From: Ureibacillus massiliensis 4400831 = CIP 108448 = CCUG 49529
GTDB lineage: Bacteria > Bacillota > Bacilli > Bacillales_A > Planococcaceae
Direction of reading: 5' to 3'
DNA length: 45,652 nucleotides
Assembly (NCBI RefSeq): GCF_000772965.1
Contig: NZ_JPVQ01000027.1
Coordinates: forward strand, 1-45,652
Shown: positions 35,997 through 45,652 of the stretch, piece by piece
Layout of the letters: every line of letters begins with the position of its first letter
How positions within the stretch are numbered: the stretch's first letter is position 1
The notes under the pieces: generated by a model
Seen by the model: only the letters and a program-made list of their open reading frames with translations
Told to the model about the DNA's origin: nothing
Databases searched by the model: none
Position numbers and translations under genes: made by a program

Positions 35997-36058
35997 TTTT
36001 TATTTCTATTTTTTATTTCGGGCTTACTTTTTATTTCTATTTTTTATTTCGGGCTTAC
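35997..36058. repeat. 31-bp tandem duplication of the IS66 right terminus
   Basis: 35997-36027 and 36028-36058 are identical 31-mers, each ending in the terminal repeat CGGGCTTAC. The target duplication follows the second copy, so the outer copy was the one used for insertion, or the duplication arose before or during transposition. Confidence 0.95.
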
Positions 36059-36066
36059 TGTATCCT
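36059..36066. repeat. IS66 target-site duplication, right copy
   Basis: TGTATCCT, identical to 33669-33676, immediately after the right inverted repeat. Confidence 0.92.
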
Positions 36067-41104: not shown

Positions 41105-42376
41105 CTATTTATTTTTAGAATCACCAAGTAAGTGGTATTGGAAGCCTGCTTCCTGCCAAGCTTCACGGTTTAAGCAATTTTTCGTATCAAACACAATTTT
41201 GTTTCGCGCTGAGATTGATAACGGATTGTATTCTTTAAACTCATTATGATCCGTTAAGAATAAAAGAATATCGGCTTCTTTTGTCGCTTCTTCTAAGCTT
41301 TGCGTTTGTGTTACATGTTTATTTTCCTTTATATGTGGATCATAAGACACGACGTCTAAGCCCAATTTTTGAAGTTCGTATATAACTTCTGTTGATGGAC
41401 TTTCTCGCATATCATCGACATTGCCTTTAAATGCTAGTCCAAGCACTGCTACTTTTGCACCTGCAATTTTATTTTGGTTTAAAATGGCTTGTGTTTTCTG
41501 TGCAGTGAATGCTGGCATATTATCATTTGTGTTACGTGACATATGAACGATTTGCGCTTTTTCTCCACCAAGCTCTACTAGGAACCACGGGTCTACCGCA
41601 ATACAGTGTCCCCCAACACCAGGGCCAGGGAAATGGACATTTACACGTGGGTGATAGTTCGCAAATTTAATTGCCTCCCAAATGTTCACGTCTAACAAAT
41701 CTGCCATTTTTGCTAGTTCATTCGCAAAAGCAATATTTACATCACGATATGTGTTCTCCATTACTTTTACTAACTCTGCAGTCGTTGCATCTGTTAAATG
41801 GATTGTTCCTTTAACGAAAGTTTCGTATAGTTCTTTTGTCATTTCAGCAGATTTTTTATTAATTCCACCAACAATACGATCATTATTCACTAACTCATCG
41901 AAAATACGACCAGGAATAACACGTTCTGGTGAATGGGATACAAATAAATCCACACCTATTTCTAGGTCTGATTTGATCAATTCAGGAATCATAATACGCT
42001 CCACAGTTTTTGGTGGAACTGTTGATTCAAGGATTACTAAGTTTCCTTTTCTTACATAAGGAACGATTGCTTTAGTTGCTTCACGAACATATTCTAGGTT
42101 CGCTGTTTTATCTGGATTGATTGGTGAAGGAACAGCAACGATAAACACGTCGGCTTCCTCTGGTGTAGTAGAGGCAGTTAAGAATCCTTCATCTACCGCT
42201 TTATTTAAGCGTTCTTGTAAGCCATTTTCCTCAATGTGTAATTGCTTTTCCTGAATGCTTCGTACGGCTGCTGGATTCACATCCACTCCATGCACCTTTA
42301 CACCGTGGTTTGCAAACATAACTGCTGTTGGTAAGCCAATATACCCTAACCCAACAACACAAATTTTCTTTGTCAT
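41105..42376 (-). CDS. wecC: UDP-N-acetyl-D-mannosamine dehydrogenase type nucleotide-sugar dehydrogenase
   Basis: 423-residue UDP-glucose/GDP-mannose dehydrogenase family enzyme, oxidising C6 of a UDP-sugar to the uronate with two NAD. N-terminal CVVGLGYIGLPTAVMFANHG, VPSPI, ESTVPPKT, SPERVIPG, and the catalytic cysteine in PGVGGHCIAVDPWFL. This pattern fits the WecC (UDP-ManNAc) branch better than Ugd. ManNAcA is a known part of Bacillales secondary wall polymers, which matches the S-layer and tagA neighbours. Epimerase wecB is not in the window. Start ATG 42376 has AAAGGAAG about 13 bp upstream, a rather long spacing. Confidence 0.85.
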   Translation of the reverse strand: MTKKICVVGLGYIGLPTAVMFANHGVKVHGVDVNPAAVRSIQEKQLHIEENGLQERLNKAVDEGFLTASTTPEEADVFIVAVPSPINPDKTANLEYVREATKAIVPYVRKGNLVILESTVPPKTVERIMIPELIKSDLEIGVDLFVSHSPERVIPGRIFDELVNNDRIVGGINKKSAEMTKELYETFVKGTIHLTDATTAELVKVMENTYRDVNIAFANELAKMADLLDVNIWEAIKFANYHPRVNVHFPGPGVGGHCIAVDPWFLVELGGEKAQIVHMSRNTNDNMPAFTAQKTQAILNQNKIAGAKVAVLGLAFKGNVDDMRESPSTEVIYELQKLGLDVVSYDPHIKENKHVTQTQSLEEATKEADILLFLTDHNEFKEYNPLSISARNKIVFDTKNCLNREAWQEAGFQYHLLGDSKNK

Positions 42377-42542
42377 AATGATCGTTACTTCCTTTCAAAT
42401 ATTAAGAACAATTATGTTTATATAATTTCATTCGTTAATTTTAACCTATTTGGTTCAATCCTGCATTTTAGTATACAACTTTCGAGTTGGTCTGTGAATT
42501 AAAATTCAATTAAATCATTGTTACATTGTTCAAGACCGGAGG

Positions 42543-42886
42543 TTTTGAGCGCATACTAAATATACTTGATCATATAAGTCTTCATTATGGGTACTTAAAA
42601 ACCAGGTTTAAAGCACATACTTTTTATTTGAGCGAACAAGCGCTTCATTGGATCACTTATTCTTATAATTGGTCGTATACTACTTTCTCTTGATCACATA
42701 GCCACTTTTTAAAATATTAAAGTCACCTTTCGAGCACATAAACATGGATTTTGAGCGCTTGTCTAATTAATTGGATCACTTAATATGTTCTCTTGATTAC
42801 TTAGCATTCGCTTTTGGTCACATAACTTTCTTTTGAGCGGATAAGTAATTCATTGGATCACTTATCTAAACATTTGGTCACATAAT
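42543..42886. repeat. Array of about 17 degenerate 20-21 bp units
   Basis: Related words recur at almost constant distance. Forms include TTGATCATATAAG, TTGGATCACTTAT (three times, one as ...TTAA), TTGGTCACATAA (twice), TTGATCACATAG, CGAGCACATAA, TGAGCGGATAAG and TGAGCGCATAC. Their cores fall near 42546, 42568, 42590, 42611, 42630, 42650, 42671, 42691, (42711 very weak), 42732, 42752, 42773, 42794, 42815, 42834, 42855 and 42875, a mean spacing of about 20.5 bp, two DNA turns. The text between cores is variable. The array fills the gap between wecC and the NERD gene; 42377-42542 holds only the wecC leader. Confidence 0.85.
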
Positions 42887-42921
42887 TTTTGTTAGCCTAT
42901 ATTAGATGCTATTCGAAGCGT

Positions 42922-43860
42922 CTAATTACTTAATATATATCTGCTTGATTTAGTTGCGCCAATTCTTTCTAAACTATTTGCTTTTAGAATTCTTTTAGCT
43001 TCATGTCTGTTTCTTAATTGTAAGAAAGATACAGCTTCTTGCGTTGTGACAGTTTTGTTTATTAGCATATAATAGTCCTTCAATGCTTGTTCATGGGCGT
43101 GCATATTACTCTTTTTACATTTTGGACAATACCATGTTCTTAACGTTCTTACCATTGGAATGGTTCCACATTGCGGACATTCTACTCCTGAGATAATTTC
43201 ATTTCTTTTAATTTCATATTTGTTACATAACGGAAAAGTAGTACTTTCATAAGGAATGTTACTTAGTATTCTAACCAATTTTTCTGTATCAATTAGTTTT
43301 TGCGATTCTGATTGATTCCATAGATAAGTTATTATTTCTCTACCAATTTTTACTGGAAATATATCTGATGGTGTTTTAATGATTGCGTTGTTAAATGGAA
43401 ATACGATCACACCATATATAGGTGCTTTTATTTTCATACTTTCTAGTAAAAGTTTCAGCCCTAGACAATATTGTTCTAGCTGGATTTCTGGACTTCCTAG
43501 AATCTGATATTTCCCGTCCTCTTCTTCACGCACGAGTTGTCTTGGATTTTTTCTGAAATGAAGAAACCCTTTGATGTTTTTAACTTCTAATAGGAGACAC
43601 AAGCTTGGTGCTACAATCAACACATCAATCTGCACATCTACCTTCGATTTGAATTGAACATTGTGTAATACATAAGTGTTTTTAGGGAGTTCGTTTTCTG
43701 AAAGTAGTTGAAGAATATACTGCTCCCCTTGTTCGCCAGCTTCGTAGCGGGAGAGTTCTTCTATTATAGTAGGATATTTTTCGTGTGTGGGAGGGATGCG
43801 ATTTTTAAGAGCGGTAAGTCCGAGTGTTATATCGTAGCTTGAAAATGGTTTTGCGATCAA
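42922..43860 (-). CDS. NERD-domain protein with C-terminal zinc ribbon
   Basis: 312 residues. The nuclease-related domain (NERD) occupies about residues 38-160: GEQGEQYILQLLSE, VDVQIDVLIVAPSLCLLLEVKNIKG carries the D-x-n-E-x-K pattern of the restriction-like fold. A zinc ribbon follows with CPQC and CPKC (about residues 226-248), then a helix-turn-helix-like tail. The start is TTG 43860 with AAAAGGAGAG upstream; no ATG is near. NERD proteins are common in Bacillales; the function is unproven, with a role in DNA processing assumed. No obvious partner gene nearby. Confidence 0.82.
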   Translation of the reverse strand: MIAKPFSSYDITLGLTALKNRIPPTHEKYPTIIEELSRYEAGEQGEQYILQLLSENELPKNTYVLHNVQFKSKVDVQIDVLIVAPSLCLLLEVKNIKGFLHFRKNPRQLVREEEDGKYQILGSPEIQLEQYCLGLKLLLESMKIKAPIYGVIVFPFNNAIIKTPSDIFPVKIGREIITYLWNQSESQKLIDTEKLVRILSNIPYESTTFPLCNKYEIKRNEIISGVECPQCGTIPMVRTLRTWYCPKCKKSNMHAHEQALKDYYMLINKTVTTQEAVSFLQLRNRHEAKRILKANSLERIGATKSSRYILSN

Positions 43861-44296
43861 ATTTCTTCTTCTCTCCTTTTTGCTTATAAGATATCAAGTT
43901 TCGAAGGGGATGGGAATAGTGGTTCTGGAAACTTTTTATTTGGGAGGAACTTTGATTGGCAAAATCGATTTTTGGAGGGTGGGTTTTGAGACCCTATCGT
44001 ATCGGTTCAAATGGACTTTTTCTGAGAGAGGTCTTCTATCAAGCTCCCATTATAGATTTGTTGAACCCAATTATATTTCTTTAAGATGCATATTCCTCAA
44101 CGATATTTTCATAAGTTGTTTTTATATATTTCGTTTGCATTCAATATAGTACGAAGGCTCTAGAATGATTAAATTTTATCATCCTAAGATTCATGCAATG
44201 TACAATTTTTCAATGTTCGAATAAATTATAGAAACTATGTATAATAAGTTCATTATTTGGTAATAATAGGGTGTAACAACAGAAGGAGGGATATGA
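43861..44296. other. 436-bp gap
   Basis: Holds a plus-strand open frame (43880-44149, 89 codons) with weak coding character, which I do not call, and a TATAAT box at 44240-44245 that may drive the small ORF at 44297 (nearest -35 is a poor TTCGAA at 18 bp). Confidence 0.45.
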
Positions 44297-44398
44297 ATGA
44301 AAGATTCAAAACACTATTCTTTAAGTAAAACAGATTGGATATTCGGGATTGTTGGTTCTGGTATTGTTGTTTTGGTCATTCATTTTTTTATCTCTTAA
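44297..44398 (+). CDS. Predicted 33-residue single-pass membrane peptide
   Basis: ATG 44297 follows GAAGGAGGG with seven bases between. The peptide starts MKDSKHYSLSKTDW and continues with one hydrophobic helix (IFGIVGSGIVVLVIHFF). The ideal ribosome binding site and the clean N-polar/C-hydrophobic layout support a real gene. An overlapping ATG at 44293 opens only an 11-codon frame. I do not recognise a family. Confidence 0.55.
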   Translation: MKDSKHYSLSKTDWIFGIVGSGIVVLVIHFFIS

Positions 44399-44534
44399 TG
44401 AACTGAATTTCGGTTATTTTGATTTTGCCTATCAAATCGCATAGCTTCCCCTCCCTTTATAGAATGATTTTCTAATAGATTCGAATATCCGAGTTTTTTG
44501 GATCTTTCATCCATGCCTTCTATTGTAATAGTAA

Positions 44535-44567
44535 AAGCACCTGCTCCTTATTGGATTGCAGGTGCTT
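44535..44567. terminator. Terminator between the two tiny ORFs
   Basis: AAGCACCTGC (44535-44544) pairs with GCAGGTGCTT (44558-44567). Plus-strand exit is CTATTTTTG; minus-strand exit TTACTATTAC. It abuts the stop codon of the minus-strand ORF at 44568. Confidence 0.8.
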
Positions 44568-44639
44568 CTATTTTTGTGTGACAATCATATTTTGTAATGC
44601 GACCGCGTATTGTGAATATAAGTTTTGTAAGTCCATCAT
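44568..44639 (-). CDS. Predicted 23-residue microprotein
   Basis: ATG 44639 follows CGGAGGAAAGG at normal spacing. The amphipathic peptide starts MMDLQNLYSQYAVALQN and ends IVTQK. The stop codon touches a terminator hairpin, as for a true last gene of an operon. It lies 79 bp downstream of the IDEAL-domain gene. No family is recognised. Confidence 0.5.
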   Translation of the reverse strand: MMDLQNLYSQYAVALQNMIVTQK

Positions 44640-44718
44640 GCTGCCTTTCCTCCGTAGCAATTCAAAAATTCGTTATTCGTGGATGTTGGTGGATGGGTTC
44701 TGAAATTCGATGTAGCTC

Positions 44719-45192
44719 TTAACTACTTTTTGATTTCAACTTTTCTTTTCTTACCACTAAATCATAAAAAAGTTTTTCATTTCTTGCGGTAAGCGCTTCG
44801 TCAATTAGGCGTTCGAGATTTTTTTCTTCTAGTGAGTTGATAATATGATCGATTTCCGTCTCATTTTCCATCGGTACAAGGTTCAGCTGTTGCTTTTGTG
44901 ACATCGCCTCGTCAATAATTGGCATCAGGTGATCATGTACATTTGATTGAACGAGTAATTGATATAATGGGTAGCGAATAAAACGATTGCCTTTTTGGAA
45001 CACAAAGACTTCAGACAGGTTTTCAATCTGCATTGTGTTCAGATTGATAATCATTTCCTTCCCTTCCACTGGAATGAAGTGATACAATTCGTTTTCTTTA
45101 ATAATGGAGAAGTATTGATAAGCAAATACCAAGCGTAAGTTATCCCCCGACACCTTCGTATAAAAAGGCTTTATATATTGAACATGAACCAT
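44719..45192 (-). CDS. IDEAL-domain protein
   Basis: 157 residues from ATG 45192 (MVHVQYIKPFYTKVSGDN) with RBS GGAGGGGG; an in-frame start at 45234 lies upstream of the RBS. The N-terminal 100 residues form a small beta-rich domain. The C-terminal ERLIDEALTARNEKLFYDLV contains the IDEAL motif found in Bacillus proteins such as YpiB and ComK-related regulators' partners. IDEAL segments are short helical docking modules. Its specific function here is unknown. Confidence 0.8.
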   Translation of the reverse strand: MVHVQYIKPFYTKVSGDNLRLVFAYQYFSIIKENELYHFIPVEGKEMIINLNTMQIENLSEVFVFQKGNRFIRYPLYQLLVQSNVHDHLMPIIDEAMSQKQQLNLVPMENETEIDHIINSLEEKNLERLIDEALTARNEKLFYDLVVRKEKLKSKSS

Positions 45193-45224
45193 ATATCCCC
45201 CTCCTAAATTTCGAATTTTATGAC

Positions 45225-45253
45225 ATTTTAACACATTTTCGTATGTTACCCAA
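45225..45253 (-). promoter_or_regulatory. Probable promoter of the IDEAL-domain gene
   Basis: On the minus strand, TTGGGT (45248-45253), a 17-bp spacer and TAAAAT (45225-45230) lie about 33 bp upstream of ATG 45192. Confidence 0.55.
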
Positions 45254-45501
45254 GTGTAAGCGTTTGCAGATTAATAGTTTTATGCGGTTTCTTTATGAGA
45301 ATTTAATCGCACTTTCATGTGTTAAATTGTGGTTATTATTATCATACGAAATACATGTGGTGATAATGATATATTCCCCACACTTTTCATCTTTCAAACT
45401 TAGGAGAGGTCGGAATTTTTGGCATTTAGAATTTTCGTTGGGTATTGGGGATTGTTTGAGAATGTGGGTTGTGGTGTAGGATTTTTTAGGGCGAAATTTT
45501 C

Positions 45502-45652
45502 TTTGGATCACATAAAAAGTGCTCTGGATCGCATAGCTTGCCGTTTTGGGCGGATAGCCGACTGATTGGAGCGGATGTGTTTTTTCGTTAGAGCTGCTGT
45601 ATGGATTCGAGCGGATACGCTTTTCTTTGGATCACATAAATAGTGCTCTTGA
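45502..45652. repeat. Second array of the 20-21 bp degenerate repeat, running off the window
   Basis: Seven units, each 20-21 bp, with cores at about 45505 (GGATCACATAA), 45526 (GGATCGCATAG), 45547 (GGGCGGATAG), 45568 (GGAGCGGATG), 45589 (AGAGCTGCTG), 45609 (GAGCGGATAC) and 45629 (GGATCACATAA), and an eighth starting TTGA at the edge. The first and seventh units share GGATCACATAAAnAGTGCTCT-like text. Same word family as 42543-42886. The remaining bases 45254-45501 hold no supported gene. Confidence 0.85.

Follow-up and report, generated by a model that had tools for sequence, protein, structure and literature searches.

Helically phased repeat arrays beside NERD-domain genes in Bacilli as candidate targets of the neighbouring protein

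Iterons are direct repeats on plasmids that lie about two helical turns apart, are separated by degenerate spacers and sit beside the gene of the Rep initiator. In the ParR/parC and TubR/tubC centromeres a DNA-binding protein is encoded beside a phased array. KOPS/SRS and Chi are sequence signals oriented by replication, and what makes a signal one of this type is its recognition by FtsK/SpoIIIE or AddAB. REP sequences and BIMEs are dispersed intergenic repeats paired with RAYTs, which are Y1 HUH transposases.

Here we describe a repeat array next to a NERD-domain gene of Ureibacillus massiliensis. The window, by which we mean the whole stretch of DNA analysed, has 45,652 nucleotides and contains the following features.

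42543..42886, plus strand: degenerate array directly 3' of the NERD gene (autocorrelation, core list and unit learning on the NERD strand)
42922..43860, minus strand: NERD-domain protein, 312 aa, TTG start (Pfam NERD, 1.7e-14; alignment of 24 sequences)
42925..43104, minus strand: coding region of the helix-turn-helix (HTH)-like C-terminal domain (domain-wise correlation; alignment)
45504..45652, plus strand: second array with the unit and orientation of the first, on the 5' side of the NERD gene, past an IDEAL-domain gene

Like iterons, NERD-associated arrays have units about two turns apart, stand beside the gene of the presumed binder and differ in specificity from system to system. Unlike iterons, they are chromosomal, number several per genome, contain from 4 to some 60 units and have dispersed copies, and their partner has a NERD domain. 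We reject an iteron/Rep system for the window, where the neighbours of the array are NERD, wecC-like and IDEAL genes (Pfam); two NERD queries found no homologue in 72,556 plasmid records, in which a wecC-like positive control matched 1,002. A putative DNA binder encoded beside a phased array also recalls ParR/parC and TubR/tubC, from which the NERD system differs in its nuclease-like domain and its many dispersed arrays. Dispersed intergenic repeats and one nuclease-like protein are shared with REP sequences and RAYTs, but the NERD-associated units are tandem direct repeats. Because the partner is a NERD protein and not a Y1 HUH transposase (Pfam), a REP/RAYT system can be dismissed.

The 2004 paper by Grynberg and Godzik on the NERD domain (PF08378) is said to be a sequence analysis. 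The window protein is a member of this family (54.7 bits against a cut-off of 22.1). Among the titles and abstract openings searched, largely of open-access papers, no report ties NERD genes to repeat arrays, and passages of PMC12802215, PMC12567373, PMC10910872 and PMC9040797 do not mention an array partner. Within this literature the NERD-linked phased array is undescribed. A passage of PMC12567373 states nuclease activity of NERD as shown, crediting the 2004 paper, and a passage of PMC9040797 says that the function of bacterial NERD had not been studied.

The array at 42543-42886 was described in a first-pass annotation, made from the letters alone, as about 17 related words recurring every 20-21 bp. 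Autocorrelation and the core list confirm its boundaries. Identity at lag 21 is 0.449 and exceeds the 0.285 of dinucleotide shuffles (z 7.04), none of 1,000 attaining it. This is the excess that the annotation had expected; lags 40, 42, 61 and 62 are raised as well. No other 21-bp signal in the window is as strong. Iterative unit learning finds 16 cores with starts from 42545 to 42874, the weak one at 42587, and successive spacings of 21, 21, 22, 19, 21, 20, 21, 40, 21, 21, 21, 21, 19, 21 and 20. Hence the period is borne out, while the count drops to 16 and the spacings cover 19-22 plus a single 40. The core is of the type TTGRTCACATAA, which reads TATGTGATCAAA on the NERD strand. Tandem Repeats Finder, run on the window, did not detect this array. 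No ORF of at least 60 aa overlaps it, in agreement with its description as non-coding, and we reject coding repeats as an explanation. CRISPR arrays consist of near-identical repeats and unique spacers of constant size. The array instead has degenerate cores of about 12 bp and spacers of 7-10 bp that recur in blocks, so a CRISPR array is rejected here too, as the annotation had judged.

The array is not alone. The one at 45504-45652 is a chain of 6 units with a score of 44.1 (best among 20 shuffled windows: 9.0) and is cut by the end of the contig (C88, 45,652 bases). Two more arrays of the window's unit lie on contig C78 of the host genome (G000), where the reversed-pattern control gave 0 matches. 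A strict two-unit pattern matches at 1 place in the host genome; a second pattern, made for the commoner variants, matched at 20. The annotation had named many arrays as the support to look for and a solitary one as its refutation; with a second array in the window, two on C78 and many in relatives, that refutation does not apply.

The NERD gene and the IDEAL-domain gene lie between the two arrays of the window. The NERD protein consists of a NERD domain (residues 42-155), a CxxC...CxxC zinc ribbon (228-248) and the C-terminal domain (about 253-312). All 24 aligned NERD sequences share Q77, D79, K94 and the four cysteines, and E92 is nearly invariant. The helix-turn-helix-like pattern of the C-terminal domain was judged by eye; among Pfam profiles and PDB sequences we found no HTH match for it. 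Compared to its counterpart in G015, which forms with the host the closest pair compared, the C-terminal domain is 93% identical (dN/dS 0.08). The linker at residues 156-222 (window 43195-43395) is 40% identical between the same genomes, with a dN/dS of 0.46.

NERD relatives are present in 23 of 25 genomes of the genus, 133 of 151 of the family and 110 of 299 of the class (54 of 118 genera); the loci that we examined are the best matches of each search. When loci were scanned with a position-weight model of the window's unit, chains appeared at 6 of 29 others (L003-L006, L011, L012), and the more distant NERD loci gave none. We therefore turned to a period-only scan and to unit learning. In the period-only scan, which misses the window's own array and counts five places twice, 56 of 66 loci have a stretch with a period of 17-25 bp; the control bands of 28-36 and 48-56 bp give 3 and 4 loci.

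For unit learning 102 loci were read. Left out were L001; L013, L024 and L025, with a broken or remote NERD; the second copies L032, L033, L037, L041, L042, L120, L127, L133, L138 and L139; and the NERD loci of other architecture, which were scored separately (L108-L111, L121, L128, L129, L134, L135, L137). From the 102 we dropped the second copies L115 and L141 and eight loci of a sub-clade with a 52-bp period (L112, L116, L117, L119, L124-L126, L132). Arrays flank 68 of the remaining 92 distinct loci: 59 loci have one on the 3' side and 23 on the 5' side, with 14 counted in both. We set the criterion by means of 240 random segments of 800 bp from the genus, of which 3 pass as single segments, while each NERD locus offers two 800-bp sides. 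One of the three random segments is the place L105 and two lie inside a 666-aa ORF. Among the 24 loci that fail, 12 have a raised lag 21 or 42, with coding sequence possible on the 5' side; lag-21 peaks can come from coding sequence too. Five of the 11 loci from beyond the home family pass (L146, L149, L156, L158, L165), and L159, L162 and L163 have a 21-bp periodicity below the criterion on their 5' side, where coding sequence is possible.

The 68 arrays contain 1,245 spacings, 67% of exactly 21 bp and 83% of 20-22 bp, under a model that permitted 18-24 and a criterion that favours 20-22. Some arrays (L144, L149) have a 20-bp period. In the sub-clade that was set apart, 7 of 8 loci have arrays with a 52-bp period (z 11 to 29), on the 3' side at L112, L117, L119, L124, L125 and L132 and on the 5' side at L126; L116 has none. 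Lag-21 scans had made this sub-clade appear to be without arrays, a view that the 52-bp period rules out. Its C-terminus differs from that of the others (LFP...TT...WC). The annotation's equation of the period with two turns of the helix therefore fits the units of mostly 21 and sometimes 20 bp and fails for those of 52 bp, which is about five turns. That 21 and 52 bp are about two and five turns supports the importance of helical phase.

Could these be ordinary minisatellites, formed by slippage beside genes and unconnected with the NERD protein? The arrays are associated with one protein architecture, which argues against this. None of the 10 NERD genes of other architecture passes the criterion and none has a lag peak, compared to 10 of 12 genes of the array-bearing architecture with a lag peak in the same family search. 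Random DNA is also nearly free of arrays. The 398 kb surrounding 20 NERD genes contain 45 peaks of at least 0.44 at lags 20-22. Random DNA of equal length (398 kb in 20 stretches of the same six genomes) contains 3, which lie in ORFs of 563, 842 and 86 aa. With the threshold at 0.42 the random stretches have 7 peaks, five in ORFs of 470-842 aa, one in the 86-aa ORF and the seventh at L105. This last stretch (about 5850-6100 of L105) lies outside ORFs of at least 60 aa and may be a true array, with no known NERD gene beside it. Eleven unit models found no match in the 20 random stretches and found further arrays up to 9 kb from a NERD gene; arrays some kb off have the unit of the local NERD gene.

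Changes in the arrays themselves are more in keeping with minisatellites. A block of 103 bp (5 units) is repeated on C78 of G000 and one of about 142 bp (7 units) in G015, and G015 has one copy more than the window of a 205-bp block (10 unit lengths) of the 3' array. The annotation had offered a tandem repeat as its alternative, and such copy-number change agrees with it. Core and spacer diverge equally between G000 and G015 (11/192 and 12/150, p 0.51), less than the 4-fold sites of wecC (31/181) and more than the adjoining intergenic stretch (2/167). However, within arrays about 12 positions per unit are conserved while the remainder varies, and the core tracks the protein rather than the genome, as set out below. 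Hence we consider slippage unconnected with the protein very improbable.

Each NERD gene tends to have a private core that appears matched to the C-terminal domain. The 3' and 5' arrays of one gene have a mean similarity of 0.70 in forward comparison and 0.23 in reverse complement, compared to a mean of 0.31 across genes. For 20 genes both flanks could be compared, and in 18 of them the forward value exceeds the reverse-complement value, in a comparison with a looser cut (score 70) than the criterion behind the 68 of 92 loci; at L029, L059, L131 and L045 among these genes the two arrays are unlike or only partly alike. Such a mostly preserved orientation relative to the gene would also suit arrays that are transcribed with the NERD gene from its 3' side and act as RNA. 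But many arrays lie 5' of the gene or at a distance, and an Rfam scan of 42300-45652 at gathering scores gave no match. A role at the RNA level thus seems extremely improbable.

Among the 68 genes, the more alike two C-terminal domains are, the more alike their cores tend to be (rho 0.173; 0 of 500 permutations), a relation that hardly exists for the NERD domain (0.048; 42 of 500) or the zinc ribbon (0.041; 54 of 500). Partial correlations are 0.176, -0.051 and -0.013 in the same order, and the reverse-complement control for the C-terminal domain gives -0.022. The C-terminal domain is thus the part of the protein with which the core correlates best. In a test by nearest neighbours, the C-terminal domain (0.609) is about as good a predictor of the array as the NERD domain (0.585; permuted mean 0.306), which speaks against a special role of the former. 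Core similarity between paralogues of the same genome (16 pairs) is 0.257, compared to 0.306 for pairs across genomes. By eye, residues of a helix-like stretch go with particular cores: [DE]SR with CGCWCGTAA, ESQY with TCGCTGATAA and DSM or ESM with CTATTAT, with L014 and L035 as exceptions. The zinc ribbon may be dispensable, because L131 and L136 have arrays without a plain CxxC pair.

Two cases bear on the link between gene and array. L118 (G015) and L123 (G000) have closely similar NERD genes, the former almost without an array and the latter with 21 units, which counts against the link. At L013 and L025 (G006:C9), a single case, the NERD gene contains several internal stops and an array was not detected.

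From the match between protein and core we infer that the C-terminal domain very probably binds the core. With one site per two helical turns many copies would face the same way on the DNA and form an ordered nucleoprotein array. The array as a whole is probably the private target of the neighbouring NERD protein, as far as sequence comparison can tell. The annotation had proposed binding sites on one side of the helix for a DNA-organising protein. We favour its first half; in place of a general organiser, the tendency of each NERD gene to have its own core makes the adjacent NERD product the likely binder. There is about an even chance that the putative nuclease domain works on the DNA of the array or close by.

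What purpose would this serve? Of 13 genomes, 10 have matches to two-unit patterns made for three other units, and the reversed controls have none. The number of places is 230 in G149, 92 in G072, 79 in G110, 44 in G005, 39 in G144, 31 in G084, 20 in G004, 5 in G024 and 1 each in G154 and G012; G040, G057 and G013 have no match to these patterns. We placed replication arms by dnaA, GC skew and dif-like sites, the latter found in 6 of 9 genomes with at most 2 mismatches to the dif consensus. In G072, where dnaA is on another contig, the arms come from dif and skew. Taking the orientation of the NERD gene as reference, the motif is a leading-strand one in 38 of 40 arrays listed: 20 of 21 in G072, 8 of 9 in G005 and all 10 listed for G149. 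For G149 this concerns the right arm, from 288 kb to 1.08 Mb, among the matches listed; its three-unit matches number 174, of which 20 are on the reverse strand without arm placement.

This bias suggests that the arrays could be polar signals comparable to KOPS or Chi. The NERD nuclease would read them while the chromosome is replicated, repaired or segregated, and selection would keep their orientation. Polarity together with the lack of plasmid and phage matches (two NERD queries found none among 50,697 phages either, and a single-protein scan of IMG/VR no relative) suggests a chromosomal role. Going by mechanically called ORFs, arrays run in the direction of the upstream gene in 31 of 39 cases and of the downstream gene in 24 of 39. 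Of the 8 arrays that oppose their upstream gene 6 follow replication, which again favours a host signal. Yet the excess of 38 of 40 over the rate for upstream genes is modest (p 0.0065; 33 of 35 and p 0.016 without the arrays beside NERD genes), and the support from G149 is limited to matches listed on one arm. Some NERD genes are themselves on the lagging strand, for example at 2862 kb in G072.

Against a host signal speaks G015, where the window's unit forms 9 clusters between 521 and 894 kb, with 5 clusters on the leading strand and 4 on the lagging one. In a pattern search of this whole genome 18 of 19 matches fall between 521 and 891 kb, and none of the window's unit was found at 2.0-2.4 Mb. 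Positions are also poorly kept in two congeneric pairs that are more distant than G000 and G015, an observation that bears on a transposable element as well, the mark of which is insertion into an empty site with duplication. Flanking genes are shared with an array locus of G072 for 1 of 7 loci in G084, and of 6 loci in G004 the NERD locus alone is in common with G005; both lists are of places with two consecutive perfect cores, and G084 and G004 are drafts. In the closest pair, both C78 arrays of the host sit at places with arrays in G015 too. Finally, KOPS/SRS and Chi are single short words, whereas NERD arrays are long, phased, private per protein and turn over in position, although orientation by replication, biased in G072, G005 and G149 but at 5 of 9 clusters in G015, would be a likeness. 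We therefore regard a host signal for replication direction as unlikely.

NERD domains occur in defence proteins, which raises the question of whether the protein is a nuclease against phages or plasmids, with the chromosomal arrays as its store, its decoy or a mark of self. The NERD gene diverges faster than its neighbours, as a defence gene might: it is 73% identical between G000 and G015, where three neighbour genes are 96-99% identical, and 54% against 83-91% in another comparison. The NERD part has weak partial matches to MAD6 in the window and to PglW at L032 and L144. However, the match to MAD6 is far under its cut-off and PADLOC gives no match for the window protein. Defence appears improbable to us.

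By a narrow margin over the host signal, our tentative preference is for a satellite-nuclease pair, that is, a repeat family spread by its own nuclease, as dispersal, block amplification, turnover and strand bias suggest. The NERD protein would bind its own helically phased array through the HTH-like C-terminal domain, and the NERD domain would cut or nick DNA at bound sites. Repair of such cuts at replication forks could then expand and spread the units. Such a cycle would yield block amplification, dispersal and turnover, and cleavage at forks would yield strand bias. Whether such pairs are widespread, with each NERD protein recognizing and spreading its own repeats, recognition domain and repeats changing together, and several mutually private systems sharing a chromosome, is more doubtful, and judged from sequence we rate it as a possibility. 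If it were true, NERD, a domain of unsettled purpose in many bacteria, would gain a DNA partner, and dozens of naturally diversified pairs of protein and site would be available for reading a recognition code. Several private, replication-oriented systems per chromosome would then amount to either a new repeat parasite or a new polar chromosome signal.

A second unit, of the GTGAGTGGACAAAA type, forms arrays near those of the window's unit (L070:18486-19269). In G015 such arrays lie at 732.7-733.2, 761.7-762.3, 771.1-771.7 and 865.6-866.3 kb, and among the NERD genes none was found that matches these strong arrays, a point against the private-target reading. One array of this type adjoins a gene that by eye we named a group II intron reverse transcriptase. 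Unrelated to the arrays, the window has a perfect 31-bp tandem duplication at 35997-36059, just 3' of an S-layer-like gene.
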